DNA of 64,000 nucleotides from assembly GCF_014842995.1 (NCBI RefSeq), contig NZ_JACYXL010000010.1, positions 62,001-126,000 on the forward strand, written 5' to 3'. The notes below the pieces were generated by a model. The model saw nothing but the letters and a program-made list of their open reading frames with translations. It did not search any database and was not told the origin of the DNA. A program made the position numbers and the translations under genes. This document shows positions 34,703 to 61,008 of this stretch, piece by piece; within the stretch, counting starts at the first letter, position 1; each line of letters opens with the position of its first letter. The DNA is from Rhodanobacter sp. 7MK24. Lineage in GTDB: Bacteria; Pseudomonadota; Gammaproteobacteria; Xanthomonadales; Rhodanobacteraceae.

Positions 34703-34711
34703 GAAGGTGTC

Positions 34712-42285: not shown

Positions 42286-44271
42286 TCATTCAAAACCAGA
42301 AAGCAGGGGTTGCAGCTCCCGCCGGAAAAGCAGCTTCTCTTCGATACTTGGTTCCAGCTCAAGCACCACACTTCGCTCCCCTTGGAGCGCTGGCGGAGGC
42401 GCAGAGGTCGTCGTGACGATGAACTGGAACGGCACTCGGCCGTCCTTACCAAGCTGCTCAGCAGCCTCGGCTGCGGCAAGGAAGAACTCCCGGTACAAGA
42501 GTTCGCTCATGTCCGCTTCTCGCGGACAGTCATGAACCAGAAAGCCCGGATGGTTGCTGGCGTCCGACATCGCGGAGTCGAGCAGGCAGGCAATGTCTCC
42601 GAGGAGCACCTCCAGCACCTGGTACGCCTCGCCGCCGCGCGCAACTTCGAAGGGGCGAACCTCGTGTTCAGGGACGAAGCGCGCGTATCCTGTGGCCCCT
42701 AGTATTCTGGTCGACACAGCTGCCGTCAAAGCTTTGAGGGCATCGACTCTCGACGACTGCTGCGATCTTCGCCTGACCTCGGTCGTCCGAAGTGAACACA
42801 GCGCCGTTTCGTGCTCCTGCAGTTGATTTCGGGCCTCGACTAGTTCGGTCGTGTCGTCGCCCTGTGCCCTTCGTGTGTGCTGCTCCTGAAGTTCGTCCCA
42901 GGACTTTTTCAAGAACGTCCGTGCGCTCTCGCTGGTGGCGATGCTGACACGCAGACGGCGAAGCGCAGCCTTCTGTTCGGTGATGGCCTTCTCTTGGGCC
43001 AATACCGCTGTTGCAAGCTTCTCGAAATCGAGCTTCCGATCCTCGTAGCGTCTGTTCAGTTCAGGGTTGCTCGCCTTGGCGTGTCTACCGTCCTGGAACC
43101 AGGTGATGCTGACCGCGCTCTTGCGTTCTTGGATGTAATGACAAGCATTGAACTCGATATCGCCAAGATCGCATCTGCCCCCTTCAAGCCCCTGTAGCCT
43201 TTCCCGAAGCTTGGTGAGGCGTTCATAGTCTGCATGATTCGTATCCACCAGGGACTTCGCGATACCGACCTCGAGGTCGGCCCGGTCGCGGGCCTTGATC
43301 AACTCAAGCAGACGCACCTGTTCTTCTGCCAAAACATCCTCCGCCCGCGCCACCTCCTGCTCCCATCGGTTCTCGTCCCGCTCAGCAGCCTGCAGGGCGG
43401 CTTGAACACGTGACTCGACGGATTCGCCAACCGTGGTCGTGAACACGGGCTCGTCTTCTCCGGCTCGTACCCGCAGGCGAAGCTGACGGTCGGCATGAGC
43501 CAACGCAAAGGCCGGCGCTCTTTCGAGCTCTGGGATGCGCTCCTTATGCTGTTCGACCTGCTTCTGTTCGGCCTCGATGTCACGCAGAAGCCGATCCAAC
43601 TCCTGGTCCACCAGACCCAGCACTGAGCCGACCAGCAGCGGCGGATCTCGCCGTGGCCTCTTGAAGCCCAGACCTTCGCCTTCACGCCAGTGGTAGAAGC
43701 CGTCGAATCTGGTTCGCTGCTCCCTAATGCACCAGGCCAGTAGATGGCGCCACTCGAGCGGCTGATTTGTTCCAGGCAGGGAGCGGGCTGCAAGCCGGCC
43801 AATCGAGAACTGCTCCAGAGCGCGACCGTAGCCGTCGAAGTCGTTCGTCGCGGTACCGTTGAGCAACGGGTCCAGCTCATCGCATTGAGAGGCCATGGAG
43901 TGGCTGTACAAGCCGTACGGTCGGAAAACCAGCCAAACGGCACCATCTACGTGGACTTTCGCCGCGACACCACCTTTGGGAAAGCTGCCAGCAGCCTTGC
44001 TTCGCAGACTGGTGATAGCCGGCGCATCGTCACCTAGCACATACCTCAGCAGCAGGCAGAGCGAGGTCTTACCGACGCCATGACCTGCGCTCGCCAATCC
44101 CGTGGCGTCGTTCGAGGCAGACTCTTTGGCCCAGACGATATTCAGCCCAGTATGCAGATCAATGGTACGCGTGAGCACCAGCGGTTCACGGGATTCAACC
44201 AGCCATATCGTTTCAACCCAAAGCCTGGGTTGCGCGCGAACCGGATTACTCACCTTGAGCCAGGTTGACAT
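42286..44271 (-). CDS. SMC/RecN-like ATPase of the defence operon
   Basis: This 661-residue P-loop ATPase has an SMC/Rad50-like layout. Walker A is SAGHGVGKTSLCLLLRYVLG (about residues 60-79). A long charged coiled-coil stretch (about 215-480; ELERAPAFALAHADRQLRLR, then KLRERLQGLEGG) separates it from the second half, where a Walker B-like GFLVHDCPREADMSELLYRE (about 575) lies. This resembles DUF2326-type ATPases that accompany other defence genes, where a DNA-end sensing or translocation role is likely. The start lies 10 bases after the methyltransferase stop, so it is the last gene of the four-enzyme operon. Confidence 0.8.
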   Translation of the reverse strand: MSTWLKVSNPVRAQPRLWVETIWLVESREPLVLTRTIDLHTGLNIVWAKESASNDATGLASAGHGVGKTSLCLLLRYVLGDDAPAITSLRSKAAGSFPKGGVAAKVHVDGAVWLVFRPYGLYSHSMASQCDELDPLLNGTATNDFDGYGRALEQFSIGRLAARSLPGTNQPLEWRHLLAWCIREQRTRFDGFYHWREGEGLGFKRPRRDPPLLVGSVLGLVDQELDRLLRDIEAEQKQVEQHKERIPELERAPAFALAHADRQLRLRVRAGEDEPVFTTTVGESVESRVQAALQAAERDENRWEQEVARAEDVLAEEQVRLLELIKARDRADLEVGIAKSLVDTNHADYERLTKLRERLQGLEGGRCDLGDIEFNACHYIQERKSAVSITWFQDGRHAKASNPELNRRYEDRKLDFEKLATAVLAQEKAITEQKAALRRLRVSIATSESARTFLKKSWDELQEQHTRRAQGDDTTELVEARNQLQEHETALCSLRTTEVRRRSQQSSRVDALKALTAAVSTRILGATGYARFVPEHEVRPFEVARGGEAYQVLEVLLGDIACLLDSAMSDASNHPGFLVHDCPREADMSELLYREFFLAAAEAAEQLGKDGRVPFQFIVTTTSAPPPALQGERSVVLELEPSIEEKLLFRRELQPLLSGFE

Positions 44272-44280
44272 CGCGTCCTC

Positions 44281-47200
44281 TTACTGTGTGCCGGTAGCCT
44301 TGGGATTTGTGGGCACTGCGCCGCTCTTCTCGGCCTCCAACGCCTTGCGCCGACTCTCGGCCAGCCACAGAAGCCGAGCAGCGTCGGGCTGTTCTGGTAG
44401 CTGGATGACATCGGCAGGCGGCGCGCCAACGCCTCGCGCGAAGAAGGCCTCGCTACCCTGTGTTGAACGCACAAGCACATCTGCGCTGACTAGGCGTTGC
44501 ACAATGGGCAGGATTCGGCTCAGGAGGGGCGTTACGTCTGCAATCCCGAGTGAACCTCGCAGGGCGTCGAAGCGCGGGCCGTCAACGGAATCAAAGTAGT
44601 GCGCTGCCGCTGCCAACGCAGCTACTGCTGACTGGATGTCCACCAGCGAACTGCGCTCCGTTCGCTCGGCGACCAATGCCGTCACCAGACCAGCCAGCCT
44701 GCCTTCTTCGGCGTTACGGATCATTCCGTGCTCGGAGTATGAAACAGGGGCCGGTTGTGCAGCAGACGACATGCTGGCCTGCTGGTCCCATGCCTCCAAT
44801 ACCAACCTGCGCGTCCGGTATTCACCGTAGGCCCGGATCTCACCCTCCTTCAGCACCCGGAAGGTCTCGCTGGGGTACTCGGCACCCATCACGTCCTTGG
44901 GATCGAGGATGTAACGCAGCTCGTCGCGGGTGAGGCCGTATAGGCGGGCATAGTAGGCGTCGAGCTCGGCGCGCAGTTGAGCGCGGCGCTCAGGGTTCCA
45001 CGCGAAGGGCTGGCCCTGTTCGGCAGCGGGGCGCGGGTCGTAGGCGGCGAGGTCCTCACCCCAAGCTTGCAGGTCGTGCGCGGTGTAGGTGAGTTCGAGG
45101 ACACGAGGTGCGATGAAAGAGAGGTCGGTGGCGCTGTAGCGGTCAGGAGCTAGCACAGGGAGCTGCTTGAAGATGAAGTAGTTCAAGTGCGTACCGCCGA
45201 CCTTGTGCCTAGCCACGAAGTCGCAAACCATCGAGCACAGGTTGCCCAGCAATGCCGCGAACGGACCGCTAGCTGCGCCTGCCCGGAAGAGCATCAAGGG
45301 AAGGCTATTTCCCACCCCTACTCGTGGCACCACCGACGCAATCACCGTACGCTCGTTGGTCGCGTTCGTAATGTCCCGCCAGCCCATCAAATACCGTGGG
45401 CTACGGCGGTCCATCCAGAGGTCCAGCAACGTGCGCAGCGCTTCCGCCAACGTACTAGTACGCAGGGCCTCAGCCAAGGGCGCCAGCTCGTCGTCTGTCA
45501 ATCGCGCGCCCATGTTCTGGGCGGCCCACTTCGGAAATTCGGCGAGAGCCTTCTTGGTCGTCTGTCCCTGGCCGCGCAGCACGTCGTTCAGACGCAGGAA
45601 TCCAGCTTTTAGCTGCACCTCTGCAGGCGCGATGTGCGGCTGGGCCTGGCTCGGTGTCCAGCTGTCGGCGGCAGGGGCCGCACCTGCCGCGCGATGAAAC
45701 AGTTCGCCGGCCACCCACTGGGCCAATGCCAGCAGTAGGTCCGCCAGTGCGGCGTCCTGAGCGGTCGCATCCTCTGCCTCTCGCGTGGCATGCATTGCCA
45801 ACCAAGCTCGCGCTACGCGGGTAGGTACTCGGGCGATGCGGGCCAGTACCTCACGCTCGTCCACCCAGTAGCGTGGGCGCACGGTGAAGGCGGGGGCACA
45901 CTTTTGCGTATCGCTGACATCGGCCGTTGCCACCTGGCCTGCCGCGCCACTGCCGGCGTCCACGTAAGTGGCCCAGCGGTGGTCGAACTGGTGAATCAAC
46001 TTTGCTTCGTACAGCGGGAGGCGCAGAGGCTGCCCCACCGAGGCAGGGGCATCTGCGAACAGGCCGCTATCGTTGGACATGTGAAACATCGCCTGGAAGC
46101 GGATGCCCCACGGGTTCACCTCGGGTCGCAGCAGCTCGCCATCTTCATCGGCCTGGACCTCGGCGATGAGCACGGGCGCGGCGCGATAGAGCTTCTTGGT
46201 CAGCTCGGCGTCGCGCTCGCTGCGGAACACTGGGCAGGTGCGGGTGTTCGGGTTGATGAGCTGGAACTCTTCGGGCCGTAAGCTGAACCTGCGTCGTTGG
46301 TCATACAGGTAGTCAACCTGACGCGCGAAATTGACAAGTTGCGCTGGTACGTCGACTCCATGCGTGCCAGCGGTAGTCAGCAAGGCGAACTTCATCGCGT
46401 GGTGAACAGCCGGGAACACGAACTCCTCGTTTTCGAATGAGTAGAGTGCAATCAACCGGCGATGCTGAGACACGGCCTCGAAGTAAGCCTTGGTGGATTC
46501 GTCCGTAGCGATACCAGTGGGCACGATGAAGCCAGCCCGACCGCTGGGTGCCGTGGCCTGCAGGAAGGTCTCGGCAAACAGCGCGTAGGTGTTGACATCT
46601 CCCACGCCGGTGAGCGAGTAGCGTCGGCTGTCGTGCGCATAGAGGCTGGCGGCCTCGGCGCCGCGGCGCGCGGCAATGAAGCCGGCATACAGCGCCATCT
46701 CGGCCCTATTTGGTGAAGTGAAACCTTCGCTGCGTTCCAAGTCGGGGTTTACGCGGTGAAGCAGCACGCCCTCACTTAGCCATTCGATGCGCTGGGCGCG
46801 CTCGGCCTTGTTCTTGGCCATGGCCACCAGCGGGCTGCGGGTAGCAAAGAACTCTTCCTCCTGCAGCTTGATGCGCTCCCATGGCGGGTTGCCCAGCATC
46901 ACGCTGAAGCCACCGGCCGCAGCCACCTGCGGGAAGGCCAGCCACCAGTGGAAGGCGCTGTGCTGCCGGCAAAGGGCCTGCACTGCTTCCTCCACCTCGG
47001 CCTTGGGCGCCTGACCGCTTAGCACACCCCACAGGTAGCCTGAAAGCGGTATGGTCGCGCCAGCCCCGGCCAGCTTGGGTGCCAGGAAGGCGGCCAGGTA
47101 GGTGTCGGCCAGACGAGCGAAACTGCTGCGCTGCGCCTGGGCCTGCGCCATGGTCCAAGCTTGCCGCTTGGCGGCGAGGTGTTCCGGCGTGTCGTCGTTC

Positions 47201-49266
47201 AGGGTCTCAACGCTGATGGCCTGCGTCGCCAAGCCTGGCTGCGTCAACAGGTCACCGCCAGCAATCTGGCGCCAGCTCTTCAGATCAGCCTTGTTCTGCT
47301 TCTTCAGCGCACTGGCCACGGCCTTGTCGTCACCCGAAAGCGCGGTGTAGGCCTCGTCGGGGATGCCGTCGTCCAGCACTTTGGGGTCCAACACGCCTAG
47401 CAGCGCGTCGCCCACGCGCAGGTGGTGGTCCACGAAGCTCAGCGGCCGATCAGGTGAATAGGCCTCCAGCCACAACGCCGTCTTCGCCAGCTGAATGGCC
47501 ATCGGGTTCTTGTCGACACCGAAGATGCAGCGGCCCACCACGTCGCGCAGCGCGTGACGGTAGTCGGCTGGTGTCGGGGCTCCACCCTCTCGCTCGGCCG
47601 CGGCGCGGTGCAACGCTACCTCGTCGGCCAGGCGTCGGGCGGCCGAGAGCAGGAAGTGGCCGCTGCCGCATGCGGGGTCGCACACGGTCAGTGCTAGCAG
47701 CGCCTGCACCGGCTGCTCCGGGTTGGCCTTCACCGCCTGCGCGATAACCGGCTCAAGCGCACTCTTGATGAGTTCCTGCACCAGGCTGTCAGGCGTGTAG
47801 TAGCTGCCCGTCAGCTTGCGCGTATTGCCCTTGGTGCTGGCATCGCTCTCGTCATCGCCGACGAAGGCCAGCCGCGCCGTGGCGGGCGACGCCAGGCCCT
47901 GCAGGTCCGGTACCAGCTCCAGCAGGCTCTCATACACGCTGCCCAGCTCTTCGGGGCCCATGTCGCGGTAGTTGACGCGAGAGAGGCCGCCGTCGGCACG
48001 GAACCAGCCGAGCTGGAACACGGCGGCTAGCAGGTGGCGATTGTCGAGTTGGGCGGTGTCGAGGCACGGGCACTGGTCAGCATCAAACAGACCACCCAGC
48101 GCGGGCAGACCCAAAGAGGGTTCACCGACACCCAAGGCACCGAATGTGATGGTCAGCGCTTGCCACAGGTCGGCATGGCGATCGTGCTGGCTGCGGCGCA
48201 CGGCGCGCTCGCGCAGCCACGTGAGCGAGTAGCCAAACAGGTAGCGGGCCTTGGCCTCGTCGCTGGCGTCTGGGGCGAAGACCAGGCGTTCGCCCGTGCC
48301 CCGGTCGAGGCGGTCTTCCACCGTGGCCAGGAAGATGAGGCGATAAACCAAGCGCAGCAGCTCTTCGAAGAAGGCCTGGCGATCGTAGCCGTCCTGGGCA
48401 CTCTGCAGTGCGGCGCGCAGGGCGCCGTTGGCCGGGTGCGAGAGGAAGCCCGTGCCCAGTGCTCGCAGCGCCTCGGCCACCTGATAGCGCAGCTTGCCAC
48501 GCACCGTGACGCCGGCCTGCTGCCCTGCAGCGCGCCAACGCTCCCAGGGGCAGTCGTTGGGTGGCGCGTCGGCGGCGCCGAAGCGAGAGGTATGGGCCAA
48601 CAACCAGAAGGCGCTGAAGTCGGCCAGCAGCTCTTCGGTGAACAGCACCTCGAGGTCGATCTCGATATAGGCCGGACGCGTGAGGCTGGCGTTGTCGCGC
48701 AGAATGCGCAGCGTCAAGCCATTGCTGACGATGGCCCAGAGCGACGCGTCGATGGCGTTCAGCACCTCCTGCGCCAGCATGAAGGGACTGCGGCGGCGGG
48801 TTTTGCCGGTATCGGGGTTAGTCTCGCCGAAGCGCTCCATGGCGCTGTCTAAGGGCTGGTCGAAGCCGGCGAAGACCAGCGGCACGCGGCCGCCGCTGCC
48901 GGCATGGCCTACAGCATAGTGGTGCCCGGCGCGTTCAATGGCTGGACAGGGCGCGGCGTCATGGAAGTGGAGCACATCGCGCAGCAGTGGCAGCAGCCAT
49001 TCGCGCACTGTGACCTCGTGCGCACGCACGTCTTGCCGCTGACGGAGGGCTTGGAAGTCCTTCCAGAGATTCAGGGCAATTTTGAAGTCTCGGGCAATTT
49101 CGTCGCGCAGCTTCAGGCCCTTGGCAATGCGGTACTGGGCTTCGGTCTGCTCGGTGGCCTTCGGATCGGCCAGCAGGGTCAGGCGCGTCAGTTCTTCGGC
49201 GGGGAGCAGGCCGCCTTCGATACGGATGGCGCGGTAGACGAGCTGGTGGAGAGGCTTTTTGGCCAT
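44281..49266 (-). CDS. giant Eco57I/PglX-type DNA methyltransferase
   Basis: This 1,661-residue protein is predicted to be a SAM-dependent N6-adenine DNA methyltransferase. Motif I is VCDPACGSGHFLLSAARRL (about 529), and the catalytic motif IV is LGNPPWERIKLQEEEFF (about 790). A long N-terminal region (1-450) with no visible nuclease motif precedes the core and a target-recognition-like region follows. The arrangement resembles the BREX/DISARM methylases (PglX, DrmMI), but it is longer. I take ATG 49266 (MAKKPLHQLVYRAIRIEGG), 4 bases after the preceding stop; 18 upstream residues overlap the helicase. It probably marks host DNA for the system. Confidence 0.87.
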   Translation of the reverse strand: MAKKPLHQLVYRAIRIEGGLLPAEELTRLTLLADPKATEQTEAQYRIAKGLKLRDEIARDFKIALNLWKDFQALRQRQDVRAHEVTVREWLLPLLRDVLHFHDAAPCPAIERAGHHYAVGHAGSGGRVPLVFAGFDQPLDSAMERFGETNPDTGKTRRRSPFMLAQEVLNAIDASLWAIVSNGLTLRILRDNASLTRPAYIEIDLEVLFTEELLADFSAFWLLAHTSRFGAADAPPNDCPWERWRAAGQQAGVTVRGKLRYQVAEALRALGTGFLSHPANGALRAALQSAQDGYDRQAFFEELLRLVYRLIFLATVEDRLDRGTGERLVFAPDASDEAKARYLFGYSLTWLRERAVRRSQHDRHADLWQALTITFGALGVGEPSLGLPALGGLFDADQCPCLDTAQLDNRHLLAAVFQLGWFRADGGLSRVNYRDMGPEELGSVYESLLELVPDLQGLASPATARLAFVGDDESDASTKGNTRKLTGSYYTPDSLVQELIKSALEPVIAQAVKANPEQPVQALLALTVCDPACGSGHFLLSAARRLADEVALHRAAAEREGGAPTPADYRHALRDVVGRCIFGVDKNPMAIQLAKTALWLEAYSPDRPLSFVDHHLRVGDALLGVLDPKVLDDGIPDEAYTALSGDDKAVASALKKQNKADLKSWRQIAGGDLLTQPGLATQAISVETLNDDTPEHLAAKRQAWTMAQAQAQRSSFARLADTYLAAFLAPKLAGAGATIPLSGYLWGVLSGQAPKAEVEEAVQALCRQHSAFHWWLAFPQVAAAGGFSVMLGNPPWERIKLQEEEFFATRSPLVAMAKNKAERAQRIEWLSEGVLLHRVNPDLERSEGFTSPNRAEMALYAGFIAARRGAEAASLYAHDSRRYSLTGVGDVNTYALFAETFLQATAPSGRAGFIVPTGIATDESTKAYFEAVSQHRRLIALYSFENEEFVFPAVHHAMKFALLTTAGTHGVDVPAQLVNFARQVDYLYDQRRRFSLRPEEFQLINPNTRTCPVFRSERDAELTKKLYRAAPVLIAEVQADEDGELLRPEVNPWGIRFQAMFHMSNDSGLFADAPASVGQPLRLPLYEAKLIHQFDHRWATYVDAGSGAAGQVATADVSDTQKCAPAFTVRPRYWVDEREVLARIARVPTRVARAWLAMHATREAEDATAQDAALADLLLALAQWVAGELFHRAAGAAPAADSWTPSQAQPHIAPAEVQLKAGFLRLNDVLRGQGQTTKKALAEFPKWAAQNMGARLTDDELAPLAEALRTSTLAEALRTLLDLWMDRRSPRYLMGWRDITNATNERTVIASVVPRVGVGNSLPLMLFRAGAASGPFAALLGNLCSMVCDFVARHKVGGTHLNYFIFKQLPVLAPDRYSATDLSFIAPRVLELTYTAHDLQAWGEDLAAYDPRPAAEQGQPFAWNPERRAQLRAELDAYYARLYGLTRDELRYILDPKDVMGAEYPSETFRVLKEGEIRAYGEYRTRRLVLEAWDQQASMSSAAQPAPVSYSEHGMIRNAEEGRLAGLVTALVAERTERSSLVDIQSAVAALAAAAHYFDSVDGPRFDALRGSLGIADVTPLLSRILPIVQRLVSADVLVRSTQGSEAFFARGVGAPPADVIQLPEQPDAARLLWLAESRRKALEAEKSGAVPTNPKATGTQ

Positions 49267-49270
49267 GGTG

Positions 49271-52120
49271 TCAGACTCCCACGGCGGTAGAGGCAGCGCC
49301 GCTATCCGGCAACAGCACATACAGGCCCATTACATCGACAGGCAGGCTGGCCGTGACCTGGTAGCTGCCTCGGCCTTCGGCAGCTTCACGCACGCGGCGG
49401 TGGTCGGCCAGCAGCACCTGGGCGCGGGCCTTGGCCATGGCCTCCAGCTGAGGTTGCCAGCCGGGCAAGGCTTCGAGGGCCGTCTGCAACTGACGATCAC
49501 GCAGTGACGCGGGCATGTTGCGGGTGGCTTCGGCGCCCAACAATTGGCGGGTCATGTCGGGGGCGAGCTCGGCAAAGGGTTCAGAGCCACTGGCTGCCAC
49601 GGCAACAGCTTCCTCGCACATCAGCAGACGCGTCTGGCTGCCATGGGTGGCGGTGAGCTGGTGGCGGATGCGCAGCAGCAGCACGGTGGTCTTAAGCGAC
49701 ACCTCCTGCACGAATGCGGCGCCGGCACGGGCGACGACCGCATCGTCAGCCGCAAGCGCGCCATCGTCGAGCGCTTGCTCCAGCAGCGTGTCGGCCAGCA
49801 CCGACACCAGGGGGTGCGTGCGGTGGATAAAGGTGGCACCCTGCGCCGCGGGTTGGTGAAAGTCGATGCGCAAGGTGTGGGCCAGGCCTTCGGCCGCAAG
49901 GCGCTCACGCACGGCAGGAGGCAGGTGCTCAGTCAACAGCTTGAAGTGCTGCTTGATGGGTTGCAGCGGCGCCCCGAGCTGGGCTGTGGCACGGCTGACG
50001 AAGCGCTCGACTTCGGCGTCGTCACCGAGCACTGCGGCGGACTTGCGCCATTCCGGGAGCACATCTTCGGGCTTGAGGCGCCGCTGGGCAAATATGCTGC
50101 GGTTCTGCTTCGCCTTCTCCCTGGCACTCTGCCAAGCAAGGTCGATTTCCTTCGCTGGCTCGCCGAAAAGGTCCAGCTGTGACTGAGCATTGAGCGCACC
50201 CTTGCGCAGCAGCACGGCGTTCATCAGCGCCTGGGTGAGCTTGCCCTCATTGTCGGGCATGGGCACCAGCACGCCCAGCTCCTTGCGAATACTCTCGGCT
50301 TTGCGCAGGATGACCTGCAGGACGGCACCATCAACGGGGTTGTCCTCGCCGTACAGCATGGTGCTACGCACCTCGCGGGCTTTCTGCCCGAAACGGTCCA
50401 CGCGTCCTTCGCGCTGCTCGTGACGGGTCGGGTTCCAACTGAGGTCGTAATGAACAACGGCGGTGAACAGACTCTGCAGGTTAATACCCTCGGACAGACA
50501 GTCCGTGGCTACCAAGACGCGGGACTCGCTCTCGCCCAACTGGTCGACCGCCGCCTCTCTTTCGTCGGGTGTCAGCTCGCCGGTCACGGCCCTGACGGTG
50601 ACGGACTTGAACTTTTCCTGTAGGGCCGCTGCCAGGTAATGCGCCGTTGCGATGTAGCGGCAGAAGACGACGGGCTGGAAGCCTTCCTTCAGAAGCAGGG
50701 CCACGTGTTCCTGCAGCTTGGCGAGCTTGGGGTCTTTCTGTTGGCCGGCGAGTGCGGCAGCGCTGGCCATCAGGGCGTCCAGGCGCTGGCTGTCTTCGGT
50801 CTTGGCGCCCGGCTCGAGGTCGTCAGTGGACAGCGCATCGTCGGTGCCATCCAGCACGCGGTCGGTAGCCTGGGACTCGAATTCTTCGAGCGAGGTAACT
50901 TCAGTCTGGCCCGCTTCGTCCAGAGCGCCTTGCAGTCGGGTGCGCAGCGCGTTCACCGCAGCGGCCGGGGACGACGAGATACAGCGCAGCAGCGCCAGGG
51001 CCGCCCACCAGTTCATGCGCTGCTCGCGCAGCGCTCGCCCTTCGAAGCGCTCGACCAACTCACGGGCATACGCCAGCACGTCGTTGAACAGCTGGCCCCA
51101 CGCGCCGGTGAGCTTGTAAGTGATTTCGGCCGAGCGCCGCTCGGGGAACATTGAGGTGTCCTGCCATTCTGCGATGTCAGCCCGGCGTCGCTGGACGAAG
51201 TGCCGGGACAGGTCTTCGCGCAGGTCACTGCGCTGGCCCGCGGGAAGGTCCTTCAACTGGGTGAAGTCAGCCCGTAGCAGGCCCAGCAGGTTGAAGAAGG
51301 CCTCATCGTCCCCGCTGTGAGGTGTCGCGGTGAGCAGCACCAGGTGACGCGCCGCGCCGGCTGCCAGGCCCTTGAGCAGTTGATAGCGCTGCTGGCGGCC
51401 CTGGCCAGCCTGGGTGCAGGTGTGTGCCTCGTCGACGATGACGAACTCGGGACAGAAGCGCTGGAAGGCTTCACGCCGGCGCTCCGACTTGATGTAGTCC
51501 AGGCTCACCACCGTGTAGGGGTGAGCATGGAACACCGAGGTGCCGGGCGGCAGGTCGCGCTCCAGACGGTCAGCGGTATTCGAGCGAACGACGACAGCCT
51601 GGATGTGGAAGCGCTCCGCCAGCTCGCGCTGCCACTGCTCGCAGAGATGCGGTGGGCACAGCACAGCCAGGCGCTGGATTTCACCGCGGTCGAGCAGCTC
51701 TCGGGCGATGAGCGCGCCTTCAATCGTCTTGCCGATGCCGACGTCGTCGGCAATAAGGAGTCGCACCGTCGGCTGCTTGAGCGCCATGAGCAGCGGCACG
51801 AGCTGATAGGCGCGCGGCTCGACGGCGATGTTGCCGAAGCTGCGGAACGGGCCTGCACCGCTTCGGAGCTTTAGTTGTAGGGCATCGAGCAGCAGTTGGC
51901 TGGCCGAATGGTTGCGCGCTTGGGCGGCCGAGGGCCAAGGGAACGTGGCCGGCCGGACCGGCTGGCGTTCCAAGGGTAGGTAAATGAGCGTCTCATCGCG
52001 CTCACCTCCGCCTAGGGGGCGCAAGCGCAGGGTTTCCGCGTCGGACTCAGGCAGGACTATCCATTCTCGGCCACGGGCAGAAATCAAGCTGCCTGGCACA
52101 AAGTTAATGCTCGTCATCAA
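49271..52120 (-). CDS. SNF2-family helicase, DrmD-like
   Basis: This 949-residue superfamily 2 helicase of SNF2/RapA type resembles DISARM DrmD. Motif I is LIADDVGIGKTIEGALIARE (about 125), motif II FVIVDEAHTCTQ (about 228), motif III LLTATPHSGDDEAFF, and the helicase C motif VI WNPTRHEQREGRVDRFGQ (about 563). The N terminus FVPGSLISARGREWIVLPES is typical of DrmD-like proteins. The ATG overlaps the stop of the upstream helicase by four bases (ATGA), so the two helicases are translationally coupled. It is predicted to translocate on double-stranded DNA. Confidence 0.88.
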   Translation of the reverse strand: MMTSINFVPGSLISARGREWIVLPESDAETLRLRPLGGGERDETLIYLPLERQPVRPATFPWPSAAQARNHSASQLLLDALQLKLRSGAGPFRSFGNIAVEPRAYQLVPLLMALKQPTVRLLIADDVGIGKTIEGALIARELLDRGEIQRLAVLCPPHLCEQWQRELAERFHIQAVVVRSNTADRLERDLPPGTSVFHAHPYTVVSLDYIKSERRREAFQRFCPEFVIVDEAHTCTQAGQGRQQRYQLLKGLAAGAARHLVLLTATPHSGDDEAFFNLLGLLRADFTQLKDLPAGQRSDLREDLSRHFVQRRRADIAEWQDTSMFPERRSAEITYKLTGAWGQLFNDVLAYARELVERFEGRALREQRMNWWAALALLRCISSSPAAAVNALRTRLQGALDEAGQTEVTSLEEFESQATDRVLDGTDDALSTDDLEPGAKTEDSQRLDALMASAAALAGQQKDPKLAKLQEHVALLLKEGFQPVVFCRYIATAHYLAAALQEKFKSVTVRAVTGELTPDEREAAVDQLGESESRVLVATDCLSEGINLQSLFTAVVHYDLSWNPTRHEQREGRVDRFGQKAREVRSTMLYGEDNPVDGAVLQVILRKAESIRKELGVLVPMPDNEGKLTQALMNAVLLRKGALNAQSQLDLFGEPAKEIDLAWQSAREKAKQNRSIFAQRRLKPEDVLPEWRKSAAVLGDDAEVERFVSRATAQLGAPLQPIKQHFKLLTEHLPPAVRERLAAEGLAHTLRIDFHQPAAQGATFIHRTHPLVSVLADTLLEQALDDGALAADDAVVARAGAAFVQEVSLKTTVLLLRIRHQLTATHGSQTRLLMCEEAVAVAASGSEPFAELAPDMTRQLLGAEATRNMPASLRDRQLQTALEALPGWQPQLEAMAKARAQVLLADHRRVREAAEGRGSYQVTASLPVDVMGLYVLLPDSGAASTAVGV

Positions 52121-55100
52121 TGCAGCTTCTCTTTCAGCAGCTGAGTAAGCTGCTTGACTATGTAGTGACTAGGACTGCTCGGCTTCGCGATTGAACTGTG
52201 GCCTTCGCCGGGCACCGTGAAGGTCTCACCGGGGCTCGCTGCGGCGTCTGTCAACGGGACCACATCGTCATCAGTACCAATGAAGTTGCAGATGTAGCAG
52301 CCGCTCTTCGTGGCGCACCACTTCTTCCAGGCCTCATTGGTCTGGAGGAGTGCACCGGAGCTCTTGCTGAGCACCTGCACCTGCGGATGCGCCGAGAGCG
52401 CCGGCAAGTGCTTGGCTAGACCGGCGAGAGACGAGCCTGTAGTTGGAGAAGCAAGCAATGCCACACAACGTGTTCTGTCACCGAGCTCGGCAGGAAGGAG
52501 ACCTAACCCGCATACCTCACTTAGCATCTTCCTGACGAGAATCCCTCCAAGGCTATGTGCCACGAACGCAACCGACGCATATCCCTTCAGCAATACCTCG
52601 CTACCCAAGTGTTTCGCCAGTGAGAACAGGTCGGTCCCACCGAAAAAGTGTGATTCATAGATGTATTTCGTGCACTTCGCGGGAACCGCTTCCTTGAGAT
52701 ATTCAGGAAGCTGTCCAAAGGTGGCATCGCCACCTCCTAGTCCGTGGACGAACACGACCAGCGTGTCATTCCTCACCTGAGCCAAAGCCTCTTGAACATC
52801 GTGCAATCCAAACGAGCATTGCACTGCTGCTCCGTACAATGGATTGGTCGTGGTACCTGCATCTGGTTTCGCGGCCTCGATAGCCCGGCGCAGGTTGAAT
52901 GCATGGAGTAGCTTCATCATCAGATTCGCCAAGATACTTCCCTGGCGAATCTCCCCCACAAACTCAATGTCTTCTGGAAGACAGCCCGCGGCCTCGCATA
53001 CCACTTTTGTGACCGTTCGCCTCGCTGCATCTGGATCTTCGCCATAAGGCACATTAAGGCGTAGGCTCACTTCGACAACGTCGTCGAGCTGTCGCGACGA
53101 GGTCGCAACTTGGAGCGGCCGGCCGAACAAATCGCTATTCCCGGCAAAGATGTTTGGCCACGTTGCGACGTCTGAGGAGAACCGCACAACTAAGTAGCCG
53201 AGTTCGTCAAGGGCCTGGTTGATGCCCTTGTCGTGAGCTTGCCGCGATTTCGTTTCGTGATGTGGCCCGTCAATGAAGACTGCGAGATTCAGGTCGTCAT
53301 AAAAGAAGTCGGCGGTGGCCTTGATACCTGGAACTGCGTACTGACCGCGGTCTGGCTTGCGGTACCCGTGCTTGGCCACGAATTCAAGCCAGTCGTGCTC
53401 CAAAGAGCTCCCGGCTGTTCGCGATAACTCGGCATCGTGCTGATCAGGGTCACGCCCTTGTGTTCCCCGGCGAGCGAGCGCGTTGGTCAGACGACAGAGG
53501 ATGTCTAGCAACAGGCCGCCGGCGTCTTTGTCCTTGCGGTCGATGAGCTTGTGGTCGGGCTGGTTGTAGTACGACAGCAGGCAGCGGTAACAACCGGCCT
53601 CGCACAGCGGGTTGCCTTTGTGGTCCAGCTCTTCGGTCAGCTCTTTCCGGGTCCATGGCTGACCAGCAGGCGGCGTCACGAAATGCATGACCTCAAGCGC
53701 CTTAGCAGCAACGGCGGACATGGCTTCAGGTTCAGTGGCTAAGCGTGTCAGCACGCCGGCACCACCTTCGGCGGCCTCGAACAGCAGGATGGACTGGCGG
53801 TTGTCGCGGGTGGGCAGCGGCTCGGCCATCAGCTCGCTTTCTTCGAGCTGATATATCGCCTCGATGCCGCGCTTGAGCGCATATTGCAAGGTCGTCAGCG
53901 TCTCGGTTTCGAGCTCGCCCAAGCCGTGATGCGGCCGCACGATGAGGATGTTCCGGCGATCCTCCACATAAGGCACGATGCGCTGTGGAGGTGTCTTGTC
54001 CGGCGGCGCCTCGCCCTCGGTCTCGGACGCTCCATTGCCGTCGTCGACACCGCCGACCCAGTGGCCGGTCACGGGGTTCATCATGAAACCCTGGATGGAC
54101 TTTTCCTTGCGACGGCGCCAGCCGAAGTTCATGCGCCAGACAGTGGCCGCCGGACCGTATTGCATCTCCAGCAATGGACCTTGCTCGTCCTCGATCACTG
54201 TGGTGACCATCTGCAGCTTTCCATCGGCTTCGGCGAATTGCAGCGTGGTCTGCATCTCATAGCCTTGGCGCACGCGCTCTTCTTCATTCGCTGTGATGCG
54301 TTCGGCACGCTTCGTCGAGACGTTCTCGATGCGGTAGAGGTTCTTGACCTCGGGCGCGCCGGACAGCGAGGCGCCGCAGGATACGCAGCGGTCTGCATCA
54401 CGCTGGGACCTGAAGTGGCCATAGCCGCAGGTCGGGCACAAGCGTGCGACTTCGGTCGGCAGCTTGGCGCCTTCGGTCACCTGGCCCTGGCCGGTGATGG
54501 TCAGCAGGGCTTTAGTGACGCGGTACTGACTGCCCTCATGATAGATAAGGCTGTAAGGGCCGAACTCGCTCAATGCCAGGAAGCGCGGACGCGACAAGAA
54601 ACTCTCACGCCCTATCGAGCCCCGCCGCGCAGGCAAGTAGGCCAGCAGCGGCAGACGTGGGAAGTTATAGCCTGGAAGGAAGCCCTGGGAGGCTAGGTAG
54701 CGGTAGGTGTAGAAATCCGAGTTGAAGGCGCTGTCGCCAGCCAGCAGCAGGTCACGCTGCTTGCGAGCCTCGTTGTGGCGCTGCTGGGCTTCGCGGCGCT
54801 CGCGTTCCGAGGCGGTAGGGTTATTCTCGATCTTAAAGTTAAGCTCGATAGCTTGTGCCGTCGCGCGATACAGATCGCGCCAGCGTTGCAGCGCGCTGTC
54901 GAACTCGCGGTACGCCCGTTGGAAGACCGAATCGGCCCATTGCTCGCTGTACCAAGGCGCATTCTGCGCCGTGAGCTCGTTGGCCAGCATGCCCAGGACC
55001 TTAAGGCCGCGCTGGTGGGCGCGCCTCTTCGCGTCAGGCCTGTCGAGGTCGGCGACCACGTCTTCGGCAACCGGCAGCCCTTCAGGCTCGTTCATATCGA

Positions 55101-58100
55101 GCAGGTCGCGGACGCTATTACCTAGGCGCTTGCTGGTCTCGGCTAGCCAAATGGCGTGCATGTGGCTCTTGACCAGTTCCAGGTTGGCCAGATCCAGTGT
55201 CGGTGCATTGACCTGCCCGTGCACCATGCGCACCGGGTCGCGGAAGTAGTACTGGTCATGCGGGCTCTGCGATGCGCAATAGGTGATGACTAAGGCGGGC
55301 TGGCCGGCGCGTCCTGCACGGCCGCTGCGCTGCGCGTAGTTGGCCGGCGTAGGCGGCGCGTTGCGCATGTAGACCGTGTTCAGCGACGAGATGTCAACGC
55401 CCAGCTCCATGGTCGGCGAGCAGAACAACACCGGCAGCCATTCGAGCTCGGCGCCGTTCTTCTTGCGCCAGTCATCGCGGTCTTTATTGGTGTAGCGAAA
55501 GCGGGCTTCTCGCTCGAGTCGGTCGTCCTGCTCAACCTGGGCCGTATGCTCGCGGGCCTCGAAGTCGAAGAGCTGGTGTACTGGACTGGCCAGCAACCCC
55601 GCTATGTTGCGGTACAGGGCTCGGAAGAACTTGTTGTCCTCCGCCTGGCGCTGACTCTGGCCTGAGCCAGCCTCCCACAGCAACGCCGTGCCATTGAGCT
55701 GCCAGCCTGTGAGGCCGACATCGGTCTCTTCCCGCTTGACCAAGCCGTAGGACTCGGCAGCCTTGAGCAGCGCGGAGACGACGTCCGGGTATGTCTGGTC
55801 GTTGATGTCCTTGTAGTAGGGGTTACCGCCGCCCCAAGTGCTGCTTTTGCGAAGTTCGCGGCCAAACCGTGAACGGCTAGAGCCGATGAACAAAAAATCC
55901 TCGATCTGCACACGGCGACCGCGGCGGTCGGATTCTTCGCGTGGACGTGAGATAACGAACCATCGAGCCGGCACGGGCCGCTCGTCTTCGGTAAATCCCC
56001 AGGGCTCGCGTAGGTTGGCGTAGCTCTGGGTGCGCAGCTGCTCAAGTTCGGAGCGGTCGAGATAGCGTGTGGCGATGCAGAGCCCTTGGCGCATGAAATC
56101 GAACAACTCGCGTAGGACCTTGGCCCTCTCGTCCGGAGTGGCAGCCCGCAAGACCAGGGGGGCATCAGCCCACTCGGCAGCATCAGCAGCGAGGTCGTCG
56201 ATGTCCTGATAGCCGATGCGAATCAGGCCAAGCTGTTCAAGGTTGGGATTGTTGTAGCGCCAACCGCGCCTCAGGTCAAAGTAGGTGCGGTAACCCAGGA
56301 TGCCGCGCATAGCCTCCTGTACTTGCCGCCGTGTGTTGCCCTTGACCTCGGGCTGCTGCATGTACTCGGCTCGGACCGCTGGATCGTCGCGGTGGAAGCC
56401 CAGGGCTTCGAAGACTGCATTGGCGACCTCGCGCTCGGAAAGCGCTTGGTCATTGCCCTTCTGCAAGGCAGACAGCAGCGCCGCGCGAGTCAATAGAACT
56501 TGCAGGAAGTCGTTGAAGTGGCCAGCCTGCAGCGCGGCATCCTGCCGGTTGTCGGAGAAACCTAGAACCTTCTTGGCCTCGGCCGACAGCTGCTGATCCT
56601 GCTCGTATAGGTAGCGCAGCGCCGACAAAGTGAGCACCGTCGTGGCTGAGCTTCGGCCTTCGCCCGACAGCGAGGTAAGACGCAAGGCATCCTTACCTGA
56701 GGAGGTGTGGCTGACACCGCAGGCCAGGCAGAAGCGGAACGCCCCGGGAATAAACCAAGCCTGCAGACCCTTGTCGTCGGTGACGCCGCCGTCCGGACGC
56801 ACCTTTACCGCCTGCGGCACGAACTTGCGCTGAGCCGATTTGATACGCCATTCGCCGTCGGCACGCTCCTCCAGCCAAGTTTCAGGGTAGCGCTCCAGAG
56901 CCTCCGGCTCCCAAATGCCGCGACCGTCCGGCATCAGGAAGCCGAACTTCACCTGTTCGTCGTCGTGTTGCCGCTCGTCGATGTTGCGCACATCGAAGCC
57001 TCGGCCCTCGGGGCCGTCGGTGTCCCAGACCGGGATGTACTCCTGGCCGCAGTCGCGGCAGAAGTGCACGTGGTAGTAGCGCCGCTGCCGGTCGTCGTCG
57101 CCTGAAACGAACTGCTGCCCATCCAGCGTGATGGCTCGATGGTTGGGCACTTCGAGCGTCGTGTAGACCTTGCCGCCGCCAGCGATGAACTGGTGCAGCT
57201 TGAAGGCGAATAAGCTTTTACCAGCGCCGTCAGTAACAGCGTACGCGCGAAGCATGAACTTCTGCAGGTAAGTCTGGCAGTTCGCGACGGATTCGCCGGA
57301 GGCCTCGTGCAACAGCTGTGATGCATCTGCGAGTGTGCGCGGGCGTGCACGACGCAGCTTGTCGTCTTCGTAGGTCAAGCCTAAGGTGAGTTCCACCCAG
57401 ACGGACATTGGATGCGCAGCCATGGCCTCGAAGCCGAGATCCATAGGCACGCCGGCACGGATGGCCGCGCCGAGCTCGCTCCGTACGGTTTCGAGCGTCT
57501 GGTTCTCAGGCGTCGTTCGGCGCAGGGTTTCGGTGATGACGTTGCGGTCCGCAATGGATGTGCCAAACAGACGCCGCGCCACCTTCGCCACCACGGCGTT
57601 GCGCTCCATTTGCGTGCCTTCGGACGCCATCGTGGCTGAGGTGCCGATGCAGATGAGTTCGTCAGATAGAGCTTCGCGCACGCGACGCACTAGTAGCGCC
57701 ACGTCGGCGCCTTGGCGACCGCGATACGTGTGTAATTCGTCGAGGACCAGGAAACGCAGACCTTTGGCGTTGCGCATCACCGCCTTGTCAATGTCGTTCT
57801 GCCGGGTCATCAGCAGCTCGAGCATCATGAAGTTGGTCAGGAGGATGTCCGGCGGCGTGGCGGCCATAGCCTGACGCTCTTCATCGGACTCCTGCCCTGT
57901 GTAGCGCCCGAAGGTCACGGCCTGGGCGGCAGAGTCTGAACCCAGGAACTTCTTCAACTCCTCAAGTTGCGAGTTAGCTAGCGCGTTCATCGGATAGATG
58001 ACGATTGCGCGTGTGCGAGGTGCCGGGTCGGCCTTCTTAGCCTTGAGGCATGCATCGACAACCGGAATGAAATAGCTGAGAGACTTGCCCGAGCCCGTTC

Positions 58101-58509
58101 CAGTAGTCAGCACGTAACTCTCGCCGGCCAATGCCAAGTTAATGGCCTCGGCCTGGTGCTTGTACAACGGCAGCGTAACGCCAGCCGAGCTAGCCGATTT
58201 CCCAAGCCGAAAGATTCCAGAGCACTCTGGGGCCAGCTGACCAGCCTGGACCAGCTCGTCGACCGTGCCGCCCGATTGGTAGTTCGGGTTGATTTGGATG
58301 AGCGGCTCAGGCCAATAACGCTGGCTGTCGTACTCGCTGTCGACAAAGGCCTTGATATCGCCGGACCGGATGCGCGTGAAGCTGCGCGTGAACTGCTCGT
58401 ACTCGCCGACGAGGTGTTCTCGAAAATCGAAGACGTCCACCACTTCCCCCTGTGTTGGCCGCTTAGCGGCTTTTCGACTGTCTTTGCTGGACTTGGATAC
58501 CCTGTTCAT
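52117..58509 (-). CDS. DEAD helicase-DUF1998-nuclease-alpha/beta hydrolase fusion (DruE/DrmA-B-like)
   Basis: This 2,130-residue multidomain protein is the centre of the operon. A superfamily 2 helicase core has motif I LTTGTGSGKSLSYFIP (about 134), motif II DELH (about 255) and motif VI QRSGRAGRAGQ (about 1058), with CRDCGQEY inserted. A zinc finger follows (CPTCGYG and CVSCGASL), then a DUF1998 region with CEAGCYRCLLSYYNQP (about 1540-1660). A DUF559/Vsr-like nuclease segment is at 1700-1785 (EHDWLEFVAKHGYRKP, FIDGPHHE). A C-terminal hydrolase (1910-2130) has FVHGLGGGD, nucleophile AHSLGG (about 1983), Asp in GTDDDVVP (about 2077) and His in GEGHSS (about 2100). The 47-base overlap with the RHH gene suggests the GTG at 58440 (behind AGGGGGA) may be the true start. 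Confidence 0.88.
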   Translation of the reverse strand: MNRVSKSSKDSRKAAKRPTQGEVVDVFDFREHLVGEYEQFTRSFTRIRSGDIKAFVDSEYDSQRYWPEPLIQINPNYQSGGTVDELVQAGQLAPECSGIFRLGKSASSAGVTLPLYKHQAEAINLALAGESYVLTTGTGSGKSLSYFIPVVDACLKAKKADPAPRTRAIVIYPMNALANSQLEELKKFLGSDSAAQAVTFGRYTGQESDEERQAMAATPPDILLTNFMMLELLMTRQNDIDKAVMRNAKGLRFLVLDELHTYRGRQGADVALLVRRVREALSDELICIGTSATMASEGTQMERNAVVAKVARRLFGTSIADRNVITETLRRTTPENQTLETVRSELGAAIRAGVPMDLGFEAMAAHPMSVWVELTLGLTYEDDKLRRARPRTLADASQLLHEASGESVANCQTYLQKFMLRAYAVTDGAGKSLFAFKLHQFIAGGGKVYTTLEVPNHRAITLDGQQFVSGDDDRQRRYYHVHFCRDCGQEYIPVWDTDGPEGRGFDVRNIDERQHDDEQVKFGFLMPDGRGIWEPEALERYPETWLEERADGEWRIKSAQRKFVPQAVKVRPDGGVTDDKGLQAWFIPGAFRFCLACGVSHTSSGKDALRLTSLSGEGRSSATTVLTLSALRYLYEQDQQLSAEAKKVLGFSDNRQDAALQAGHFNDFLQVLLTRAALLSALQKGNDQALSEREVANAVFEALGFHRDDPAVRAEYMQQPEVKGNTRRQVQEAMRGILGYRTYFDLRRGWRYNNPNLEQLGLIRIGYQDIDDLAADAAEWADAPLVLRAATPDERAKVLRELFDFMRQGLCIATRYLDRSELEQLRTQSYANLREPWGFTEDERPVPARWFVISRPREESDRRGRRVQIEDFLFIGSSRSRFGRELRKSSTWGGGNPYYKDINDQTYPDVVSALLKAAESYGLVKREETDVGLTGWQLNGTALLWEAGSGQSQRQAEDNKFFRALYRNIAGLLASPVHQLFDFEAREHTAQVEQDDRLEREARFRYTNKDRDDWRKKNGAELEWLPVLFCSPTMELGVDISSLNTVYMRNAPPTPANYAQRSGRAGRAGQPALVITYCASQSPHDQYYFRDPVRMVHGQVNAPTLDLANLELVKSHMHAIWLAETSKRLGNSVRDLLDMNEPEGLPVAEDVVADLDRPDAKRRAHQRGLKVLGMLANELTAQNAPWYSEQWADSVFQRAYREFDSALQRWRDLYRATAQAIELNFKIENNPTASERERREAQQRHNEARKQRDLLLAGDSAFNSDFYTYRYLASQGFLPGYNFPRLPLLAYLPARRGSIGRESFLSRPRFLALSEFGPYSLIYHEGSQYRVTKALLTITGQGQVTEGAKLPTEVARLCPTCGYGHFRSQRDADRCVSCGASLSGAPEVKNLYRIENVSTKRAERITANEEERVRQGYEMQTTLQFAEADGKLQMVTTVIEDEQGPLLEMQYGPAATVWRMNFGWRRRKEKSIQGFMMNPVTGHWVGGVDDGNGASETEGEAPPDKTPPQRIVPYVEDRRNILIVRPHHGLGELETETLTTLQYALKRGIEAIYQLEESELMAEPLPTRDNRQSILLFEAAEGGAGVLTRLATEPEAMSAVAAKALEVMHFVTPPAGQPWTRKELTEELDHKGNPLCEAGCYRCLLSYYNQPDHKLIDRKDKDAGGLLLDILCRLTNALARRGTQGRDPDQHDAELSRTAGSSLEHDWLEFVAKHGYRKPDRGQYAVPGIKATADFFYDDLNLAVFIDGPHHETKSRQAHDKGINQALDELGYLVVRFSSDVATWPNIFAGNSDLFGRPLQVATSSRQLDDVVEVSLRLNVPYGEDPDAARRTVTKVVCEAAGCLPEDIEFVGEIRQGSILANLMMKLLHAFNLRRAIEAAKPDAGTTTNPLYGAAVQCSFGLHDVQEALAQVRNDTLVVFVHGLGGGDATFGQLPEYLKEAVPAKCTKYIYESHFFGGTDLFSLAKHLGSEVLLKGYASVAFVAHSLGGILVRKMLSEVCGLGLLPAELGDRTRCVALLASPTTGSSLAGLAKHLPALSAHPQVQVLSKSSGALLQTNEAWKKWCATKSGCYICNFIGTDDDVVPLTDAAASPGETFTVPGEGHSSIAKPSSPSHYIVKQLTQLLKEKLH

Positions 58510-58639
58510 CGCAATGCTGACGGACCAGCACTTCTACAAGGTTGGCTAGTGTTCTGTGCTCTCGGTACGCTGCCAGGCGGATCAGCTCCTTCAATTCGGG
58601 CGAGACCCGAAGGTTGAGGGTTTCTGTCTTGCGTTCCAT
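58463..58639 (-). CDS. ribbon-helix-helix DNA-binding protein
   Basis: This 58-residue protein starts MERKTETLNLRVSPELKELI and has the classic RHH pattern: a first beta strand ETLNLRVSP, then two helices (KELIRLAAYREHR and LANLVEVLVRQHC). It is predicted to be a dimeric repressor, as in antitoxin and CopG/Arc families. It overlaps the helicase frame by up to 47 bases and is the first gene of the operon, so it may control expression of the whole defence locus. The longer frame to 58870 is not supported. Confidence 0.75.
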   Translation of the reverse strand: MERKTETLNLRVSPELKELIRLAAYREHRTLANLVEVLVRQHCDEQGIQVQQRQSKSR

Positions 58640-59569: not shown

Positions 59570-59641
59570 TTGTCGACGTCTCCCCGCTTTTGAGTAGCGC
59601 GGCCGTTTGGAGTCCAATCCCCCAACCGAAGGAGATTGGAC

Positions 59642-59905
59642 GTGAAGAAGCGCTTTTCCGAAGAACAGATCATCGGCTTCCTGCGTGAGGCGGACGCCGG
59701 TCTGCCGATCAAGGAGCTGTGTCGCAAGCACGGCTTCAGCGAGGCCTCTTACTACCTGTGGCGCAGCAATTTCGGCGGGATAAGCGTGCCGGATGCCAAG
59801 CGCCTGAAGGAGCTGGAGACGGAGAACGCGCGGCTGAAGAAGCTGCTGGCCGAGCAGATGCGTGAGAACGAGGTGATCCGGGACGTCCTGCGAAAAAAAC
59901 CGTAG
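59642..59905 (+). CDS. IS3 orfA (transposase HTH subunit)
   Basis: This 87-residue protein starts at a GTG (59642) behind AGGAGATTGG. It contains the helix-turn-helix of IS3 OrfA (KKRFSEEQIIGFLREADAGL, ELCRKHGFSEASYYLWRSNF) and a leucine-zipper-like tail (LKELETENARLKKLLAEQMR). The end has CGAAAAAAACCG, a typical programmed -1 frameshift site for making the OrfAB fusion. It is part of the IS at 59571-60713. Confidence 0.85.
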   Translation: MKKRFSEEQIIGFLREADAGLPIKELCRKHGFSEASYYLWRSNFGGISVPDAKRLKELETENARLKKLLAEQMRENEVIRDVLRKKP

Positions 59906-60667
59906 GCGCACCGGCCCGACGCTCGTTGGTCCGCCAGATGATCGACCAGGGGCTGAGCGAGCGGCGTTCGTTGCGTATCGTGGACCTTCGGCAACGCATC
60001 GTGGCGCTAGCACAGCGGCATAAGCGCTACGGCGTGGGCATGATCCATCTGAAGCTTCGGCAGGAAGGCGCACCCGTGAATTACAAGCGCGTGGGACGGC
60101 TGTATCAGGAAGGGCGGCTGCAGGTGCGTCGACGCAAGCGCAAGAAGGTGCAGGTAAGCGAGCGGCAACCGTTGTTGCGTCCGTCGACTGCCAACGAAGT
60201 GTGGTCGATGGATTTCGTATTCGACCGCACCGCCGACGCTCGGGTGCTCAAGTGCCTGACTATCGTCGATGGCGCCACGCATGAATCGGTGGGCATCGAA
60301 GTCGAACGAGCGATCTCCGGCACGGGCATGACGTGCGTGCTGGACCGCCTGGCGCACAGTCGCGGCTTGCCCAAGACGACCCACGCCGACAACGGCAAGG
60401 AGTTTTGCGGCAAGGCTAATGGTCGCCTGGGCGCACGAACGCGGCGTGCAGTTACGCCTGATCGAACCGGGCAATCCGAACCAGAACGCTTACATCGAAT
60501 CATTCAACGGGCGTCTGCGCGACGAGTGCCTCAACGAACATTGGTTCCCGAGCCTGCCGCACGCCCGCACCGAGATCGAACGCTGGCGACGCGAATACAA
60601 CGAGGAGCGACCGAAGAAGGCGTTGGGCGGCCTGACACCCGCCGCCTACGCCAAGCAGTTAAAGTAA
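59890..60667 (+). pseudogene. IS3 orfB transposase, broken by a frameshift
   Basis: From the slip site the frame reads RRSLVRQMIDQGLSERRSLR, then KRYGVGMIHLKLRQEG, then NEVWSMDFVFDRTADARVLK (first catalytic Asp) and [11 protein letters not shown] (second Asp). After the sequence GGCTAATGG (about 60,413) one extra A moves the reading to another frame; the correct end ([35 protein letters not shown] with the catalytic Glu) follows from 60419 to the stop at 60667. A read error at this base would restore the gene. Confidence 0.85.
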
Positions 60668-60713
60668 TACCGGACTCCAAACGGACCCGCTACTCAAGGC
60701 GGGGGCGTCGGAG

Positions 60714-61008
60714 AATACGCGCAGCAAAATGCAACAACTTTGAATGGAGGCCAGAGAGTTGTGCTCCAACCCATGGCGCTATTTTAAGAGCGGGGGAACG
60801 TCGGGGAATCAGGAATATGGACATTGACTGACCATGCTGAATCATGATATAAACGCAGCCTGCCGCTACACAAGCTGTTGCCTCAACTGTGTTGAGTCGA
60901 ACGAATCGGTGCGCGGATGTTGTTGGTGAAGGGCTTTGATGTAAGGGTTGCATCTGATATTCACGTGTCACCGTGAAAATATTTTAGCCATCAGGGAGAT
61001 TCTGTATC
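60714..61008 (+). promoter_or_regulatory. leader of the Cys-rich peptide gene with candidate promoter
   Basis: This region is more AT-rich than the IS beside it. A sigma70-like promoter is visible: TTGACT at 60824-60829 and TATAAA at 60848-60853, with 18 bases between. It would give a leader of about 150 bases before the peptide gene. No gene-like frame is present here; the 93-codon minus-strand frame is a shadow. Confidence 0.5.

Follow-up and report, generated by a model that had tools for sequence, protein, structure and literature searches.

A predicted ARMADA Type I defence operon in Rhodanobacter with an LmuB-like ATPase and an alpha/beta-hydrolase domain fused to its helicase

A stretch of 64,000 nucleotides of Rhodanobacter sp. 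7MK24 (hereafter the window) contains five minus-strand genes between positions 42286 and 58639, all with open frames and confirmed as real (Table 1). Neighbouring frames overlap or are separated by a 9-base gap, and the helicase stop codon and the ATG of the SNF2 gene share the bases TGATG; the methylase is likely to start near 49266, later than the annotated frame start. An earlier note on this DNA had described a single operon of overlapping or nearly touching genes for an RHH protein, a DruE-like helicase, a DrmD-like SNF2 helicase, a PglX/DrmMI-like methylase and an SMC-like ATPase. The frames and coordinates bear out this layout, and Pfam and PADLOC agree with the gene assignments, the LmuB match of the ATPase being weak (28 bits). 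Chance is excluded as an explanation of the family matches and gene order, since full-length matches to several families stand in one order that recurs in other genomes.

Table 1 Features of the operon and of its fused domains (window positions)
Feature	Position	Strand	Evidence
RHH protein, 58 aa, probable regulator	58463..58639	-	Pfam TacA1 21.0 bits
YprA/DruE-like helicase with fused nuclease and hydrolase, ArmC-like, 2130 aa	52117..58509	-	PADLOC DruE 309 bits; Pfam DEAD, Helicase_C, MZB
Vsr/DUF559-like PD-(D/E)XK nuclease domain, residues 1661-1796	53122..53529	-	DUF559 25.0 bits
Helicase C-terminal tail, window only, residues 1797-2130	52120..53121	-	Alignment of relatives, locus searches
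Alpha/beta-hydrolase domain, residues 1914-2107	52189..52770	-	Pfam Abhydrolase_6 35.1 bits, DUF676 25.4 bits
SNF2/RapA-type helicase, BrxHII/DrmD/ArmA-like, 949 residues	49271..52117	-	PADLOC DpdE, DrmD
PglX/DrmMI-like N6 adenine methylase, ArmB-like, 1679 aa	44281..49320	-	PADLOC DrmMI 207 bits; Pfam Eco57I 58.7 bits
LmuB-like SMC/Rad50-type ATPase, 661 aa	42286..44271	-	PADLOC LmuB 1.7e-7; fold search

Elsewhere in the window, three long plus-strand frames at 31304-37299 read like tyrosine recombinases and are accompanied by a 167-residue frame. Pfam Phage_integrase matches the third of the three weakly (E 0.0035, under the cut-off) and neither of the others, and GC content drops from ~0.67 to 0.60 over this interval. 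Beside the operon start lies an IS3-like element whose frame is broken (59636-60831, recognised by reading only), an rve-type transposase frame occupies 62857-63702, and the contig ends 964 bases beyond the window.

The helicase carries the motifs GTGSGKS (residue 137), DELH (257) and QRSGRAGR (1060). Its DUF559/Vsr-like domain exceeds the cut-off of 20.6 bits when that piece is scanned alone and falls slightly under it, at 19.9 bits, in the whole-protein scan; the motifs ADFFYD and FIDG-HE are preserved in most of 16 aligned close relatives. The SNF2 helicase is matched over residues 6-945 by the PADLOC DpdE model PDLC02853 (694 bits) and less strongly by DrmD (294 bits in PADLOC; 338 bits in NCBIfam, below the cut-off of 610), and contains the Pfam domain SNF2-rel_dom. 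The methylase combines Eco57I with N6_Mtase and has the motifs DPACGSG (548) and NPPW (811). For the RHH protein, the TacA1 score equals the cut-off of 21, with RHH_5 and HicB under theirs. Among close relatives, 3 of 20 loci have a homologue upstream of the helicase, as against none of 15 phylum-sample loci and none of 8 plasmid loci; the RHH gene was therefore dropped as a candidate core component. The Vsr motif is part of the basis on which we take the nuclease domain to be of the Vsr type.

The operon thus consists, behind its RHH gene, of a YprA-like helicase with a DUF1998/MZB region and a C-terminal nuclease, putatively of the Vsr type, followed by BrxHII-like, PglX-like and ATPase genes. 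According to the available part of a preprint (Bell et al. 2025, PMC12458937), ARMADA Type I joins a Druantia-like YprA helicase to two helicase/methylase genes common to DISARM class 1, in the order YprA helicase, BrxHII-like, PglX-like, and the ARMADA helicase has a C-terminal Vsr-type nuclease, a description that the typing of our domain also follows. By the features compared (gene content, gene order and nuclease), the operon is a member of ARMADA Type I. What the earlier note took for mixed ancestry is the combination of this described class. In contrast, Type II runs ArmA, ArmB, ArmC, whereas the window operon starts with the helicase, and the GajB-like helicase fused to RelE that is described for Type II has no counterpart in it. 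Compared with the main-text description of Type I, as far as it is available, the window operon differs in the LmuB-like ATPase after the methylase, in the alpha/beta-hydrolase fused behind the nuclease and in the RHH gene before the helicase. That text names no hydrolase, lipase, SMC, Lamassu or esterase, and mentions HNH and ATPase nowhere but in the references; a literature search of limited reach recognised no related description. The ATPase, which is common to many relatives, and the hydrolase fusion, a single case, go beyond the main-text description of ARMADA so far available. A new subtype, as suggested in the earlier note, holds in this narrower sense and not as a new mixture of genes. 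The note had also seen no separate restriction gene, which is correct for the operon but overlooks the nuclease fused to the helicase; neither this domain nor the hydrolase was mentioned in it.

The hydrolase lies in a tail of 334 residues, or 332 counted past LFG in the alignment. Its Abhydrolase_6 match stands above the cut-off of 26.3 bits, as the DUF676 match does above its own, and candidate catalytic residues are S1986, D2080-2082 and H2104, the triad being assigned by position alone. A PDB sequence search with the hydrolase returned two lipase/esterase matches of marginal significance (E 0.036 and 0.09), and a model of the tail from one sequence reached a pLDDT of 39, too low to be of use. 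All 16 aligned close relatives lack the tail and end 3-8 residues past the LFG at the close of the Vsr-like domain. Likewise, it is missing from 20 of 20 helicases from 19 genomes, where the match ends at residue 1797-1803, and no hydrolase domain was found in the 79 ATPase loci (the best 79 of 258 relatives). At E<=1e-8 the tail was found in its own genome alone among 398 genomes of the order. At E<=1e-5, three further matches were seen in 369 genomes of the class, each of ~100 residues with 30-32% identity; the one that was domain-scanned has a NACHT domain. A tail profile search of 127 loci is able to find relatives, as it recovered a Nitrosospira hydrolase and hydrolases of ABC-3C systems in addition to the tail's own loci. 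The hydrolase fusion is a single occurrence so far, unseen in the relatives examined.

The closest tail relative seen is a stand-alone Nitrosospira plasmid protein, 34% identical over the hydrolase. It adjoins genes annotated as EH signature, SNF2-related and GIY-YIG (L011:1709-8642), a setting that we take to be Zorya-like. Similar hydrolases also occur in annotated ABC-three-component systems; in such defence-like settings they are stand-alone or fused, and none was found fused to a helicase. In viral contigs, 106 pattern stretches yielded no confirmed relative with patterns that reach close relatives only, and none was found in phage records. Third-position GC is lower in the tail (0.617) than in any stretch of equal size from the helicase core (0.728-0.808); the Vsr part, at 0.669, and the ATPase, at 0.674, also fall short of the core. 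The low value in the tail fits recent arrival. Together with the single occurrence, and with a Vsr domain and downstream genes that are intact without the tail, it would also suit an inert passenger, acquired by in-frame fusion of a neighbouring gene, on a plain ARMADA I operon with an extra ATPase. We regard this as possible but doubtful, since all 334 codons are open, the TGATG coupling to the next gene is kept, candidate serine, aspartate and histidine residues are present, and similar hydrolases stand near the Zorya-like SNF2/EH pair with GIY-YIG and in ABC-three-component systems.

No Pfam family matches the window ATPase, for which LmuB was the sole family found by PADLOC. An alignment of 59 sequences was made from the window protein and those of 58 of the 79 loci, leaving out 21 loci; Pfam finds DUF2326 in 5 of the 59. 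Walker A (GHGVGKT), the cysteines C367 and C377 and the motif HD[C/S]PREAD are present in all 59, and the Walker B aspartate is followed by C in 39 of them and by S in the other 20. We infer that this residue occupies the position of the catalytic glutamate. The AlphaFold2 model has a mean pLDDT of 85.7, with values below 50 for the hook that holds the two cysteines. Foldseek ranked a YydD model first and Lamassu LmuB complexes second to eighth (E 3.6e-13 to 9.9e-11, TM 0.37-0.47). A PDB sequence search with the single protein found nothing, and with the ATPase profile found coiled-coil matches only. The likeness to LmuB is weak by sequence and clear by the fold search with the predicted model.

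LmuB proteins have ~650 residues, in many cases a zinc hook, and an E-to-Q change in Walker B, and alpha/beta-hydrolases are among the effectors of the LmuB family, according to the available part of a review (PMC10586767). The window ATPase resembles the LmuB of Lamassu/ABC-3C in its length (~660 aa), SMC/Rad50-like fold, hook cysteine pair and Walker B without catalytic glutamate, although its family has Cys/Ser where LmuB has Gln. Hydrolase and nuclease effectors both occur in the Lamassu family, whereas here the hydrolase sits on the helicase and the PADLOC matches listed for the five operon proteins include neither LmuA nor LmuC. Membership in Lamassu is accordingly limited to the LmuB-like ATPase.

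Linkage of the ATPase to the other genes was assessed by a genome-contig scan, which yielded 258 relatives, the best 79 loci of which were fetched. Helicase, SNF2, methylase and ATPase genes follow in the same order in 51 of these 79, so the linkage whose absence the earlier note had named as a possible refutation is conserved. The remaining loci comprise 6 with DrmA-like genes and 22 other cases, among which 11 have an upstream methylase match and several are truncated at the end of a contig. Among plasmids, 8 records match the ATPase (E<=1e-5), 7 of them carrying all four large genes in order, and 68 match the helicase core at a different threshold (E<=1e-60), many being near copies (for example, 16 from Deinococcus). 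As the 79 loci had been found through the ATPase, the helicase was used in turn as the query against 398 genomes of the phylum, and 14 of these contain it, the own genome included. Downstream regions were fetched for 14 of the 15 helicase places in the 13 other genomes. Nine extend beyond the methylase, four are too short and one contains a partial helicase. The ATPase is present in 6 of these 9 and absent in 3, and operons on Roseomonas and Acidithiobacillus plasmids are without it. Thus, the ATPase is not universal in such operons.

A position of the ATPase directly behind the large methylase recurs across diverse loci. ATPase and SNF2 distances correlate across 52 loci (r 0.79, with none of 2000 permutations as high, host kinship being ignored). 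In one locus (L038) the ATPase, at 32%, has diverged much further than the adjacent genes (68-71%), and in another (L062) it adjoins a type IIG-like methylase. A planctomycete has the same ATPase family directly after type I restriction and specificity genes (L078:3096-11941). On an Acinetobacter plasmid, an HNH gene is preceded by genes annotated as AAA family ATPase and DUF3696 in place of the LmuB-like ATPase (L149:28125-30782), so this place in the operon may be exchangeable.

The ATPase also occurs in five DISARM class 1 loci (L068, L085, L090, L091 and L092), at ~9.4-12 kb and between the drmMI- and drmA-like genes, the order being drmD-like, drmMI-like, ATPase, drmA-like, drmB-like, with an extra frame between ATPase and drmA in some. 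L092 was assigned by PADLOC (DrmMI 1299, DrmA 942, DrmB 264 bits) and the other four by tblastn with the L092 proteins. A sixth case, L077, has drmA and drmB downstream, and its contig starts 1.5 kb before the ATPase. These DISARM neighbours, the type IIG-like methylase, the type I restriction genes and the ARMADA operons that lack the ATPase could mean that it is an independent Lamassu-like module merely travelling with ARMADA and DISARM. We consider this unlikely: no LmuA- or LmuC-like gene is found among the operon proteins, the place directly behind a large methylase recurs across diverse loci, and ATPase distances correlate with SNF2 distances.

In many relatives an HNH gene follows on the same strand. 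Of the 51 ordered loci, 35 have it, 15 of them at a distance within 1 kb, and it is also present in 5 of 7 plasmid loci; where ~10 kb of downstream sequence is at hand, 28 of 36 ordered loci have it and 8 do not. None lies downstream of the ATPase in the window, and none was found in the own genome by a search without a positive control. Loss of HNH and a stray fusion might indicate a decaying operon that has become inactive. However, 8 of 36 relatives' loci are likewise without HNH, and its lack in this operon may be of no significance; with five open frames, intact motifs wherever checked and tightly packed genes, decay is improbable. The idea that HNH replaces Vsr, which arose from rhizobial loci, was dropped because HNH genes also stand behind Vsr-bearing helicases.

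PADLOC names single genes as DruE, DrmD and DrmMI, which might point to other known systems. The operon shares DrmD-like and DrmMI-like genes with DISARM class 1, in five loci of which the same ATPase family occurs; its helicase is most similar to DruE models, as in Druantia; and like Hma it brings together an SNF2 helicase, a methylase and an ATPase. In contrast to DISARM, however, one DruE-like protein stands in place of separate DrmA and DrmB genes, and the PADLOC matches listed for the five operon proteins include no DrmB or DrmC. DruH and other Dru genes are absent from the same matches, the operon includes a methylase, and the PLD domain of Druantia type III contrasts with the Vsr-like domain here. 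The earlier note had rightly seen neither DrmC nor DruH. Membership in DISARM or Druantia is rejected, as required partner genes are missing from the operon proteins. The Hma class that the note had mentioned does not fit either, since the Hma methylase is described as m5C (PMC8565338), whereas that of the window is of the N6 type, its ATPase matched LmuB and not HmaC, and a YprA helicase is added. That the operon represents Hma, or a new subtype of DISARM or Druantia, is hardly credible given a helicase and DUF1998 in one protein, the missing DrmB and DrmC, the Vsr and not PLD domain and the N6 and not m5C methylase, all of which ARMADA I explains.

The interpretation that we prefer, with a probability of roughly 70%, is an ARMADA I-type restriction system with an LmuB-like sensor and a recently fused effector of the lipase/esterase type. 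Its basis, methylation-guided restriction of the ARMADA I type, is highly probable from the gene content, and the modification-based anti-phage role proposed in the earlier note is well supported at the level of predicted proteins. The methylase would mark host DNA, and the SNF2 translocase and YprA helicase would act on unmarked incoming or replicating phage DNA. The helicase probably does so at exposed single-strand stretches, as shown for the related DruE, which engages ssDNA-containing intermediates (available part of PMC13192584), and its Vsr-like domain would cut the phage DNA, as the domains and the tested ARMADA II and DruE systems suggest. For ARMADA Type II, anti-phage activity was tested, as the available part of the preprint describes (PMC12458937).

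By analogy with Lamassu, the LmuB-like ATPase may sense DNA structure, probably closing on DNA like a slow switch and not as a motor, because its Walker B motif lacks the usual catalytic glutamate. In relatives an HNH nuclease is often its nearest conserved downstream partner, and here a hydrolase is joined in frame to the helicase. This hydrolase could be an effector that damages the cell, through membrane lipids or another ester, upon an infection signal from restriction or from the ATPase, which would turn restriction into restriction plus abortive infection. A functional link between ATPase and hydrolase, drawn from this analogy, is tentative and less likely than not. It is equally speculative that ARMADA I is an expandable platform in which an LmuB-like sensor, common with DISARM class 1, forms a regular fourth component that recruits interchangeable effectors; here the effector role may have moved to the helicase-fused lipase/esterase, so that one protein would cut phage DNA and attack the cell.

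Three families that are usually kept apart, ARMADA, DISARM and Lamassu, are linked by this locus. Should the LmuB-like ATPase act together with large defence methylases, a sensor of abortive infection would also be part of restriction systems, and the question of what activates helicase-nuclease systems would become testable. The hydrolase fusion offers a natural one-protein case in which restriction is joined to a possible cell-killing effector.

In relatives, the interval between ATPase and HNH points to a recurring site of defence-gene accumulation. By profile search, 9 of the 51 loci have DRT1-like genes there, 7 have GmrSD-like genes, one of which is a short piece, 3 have DUF7380 and 1 has a kinase-helicase resembling Mokosh MkoA. 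MkoA is matched a second time in a locus whose available sequence shows no HNH gene, and none of the four has a match in the window. Five DRT1-like reverse transcriptase genes between ATPase and HNH (L024:12052-16023, L027:12113-15970, L028:12193-16011, L034:11979-15839 and L047:12012-16007) score 1327-1421 bits against PADLOC Drt1a.
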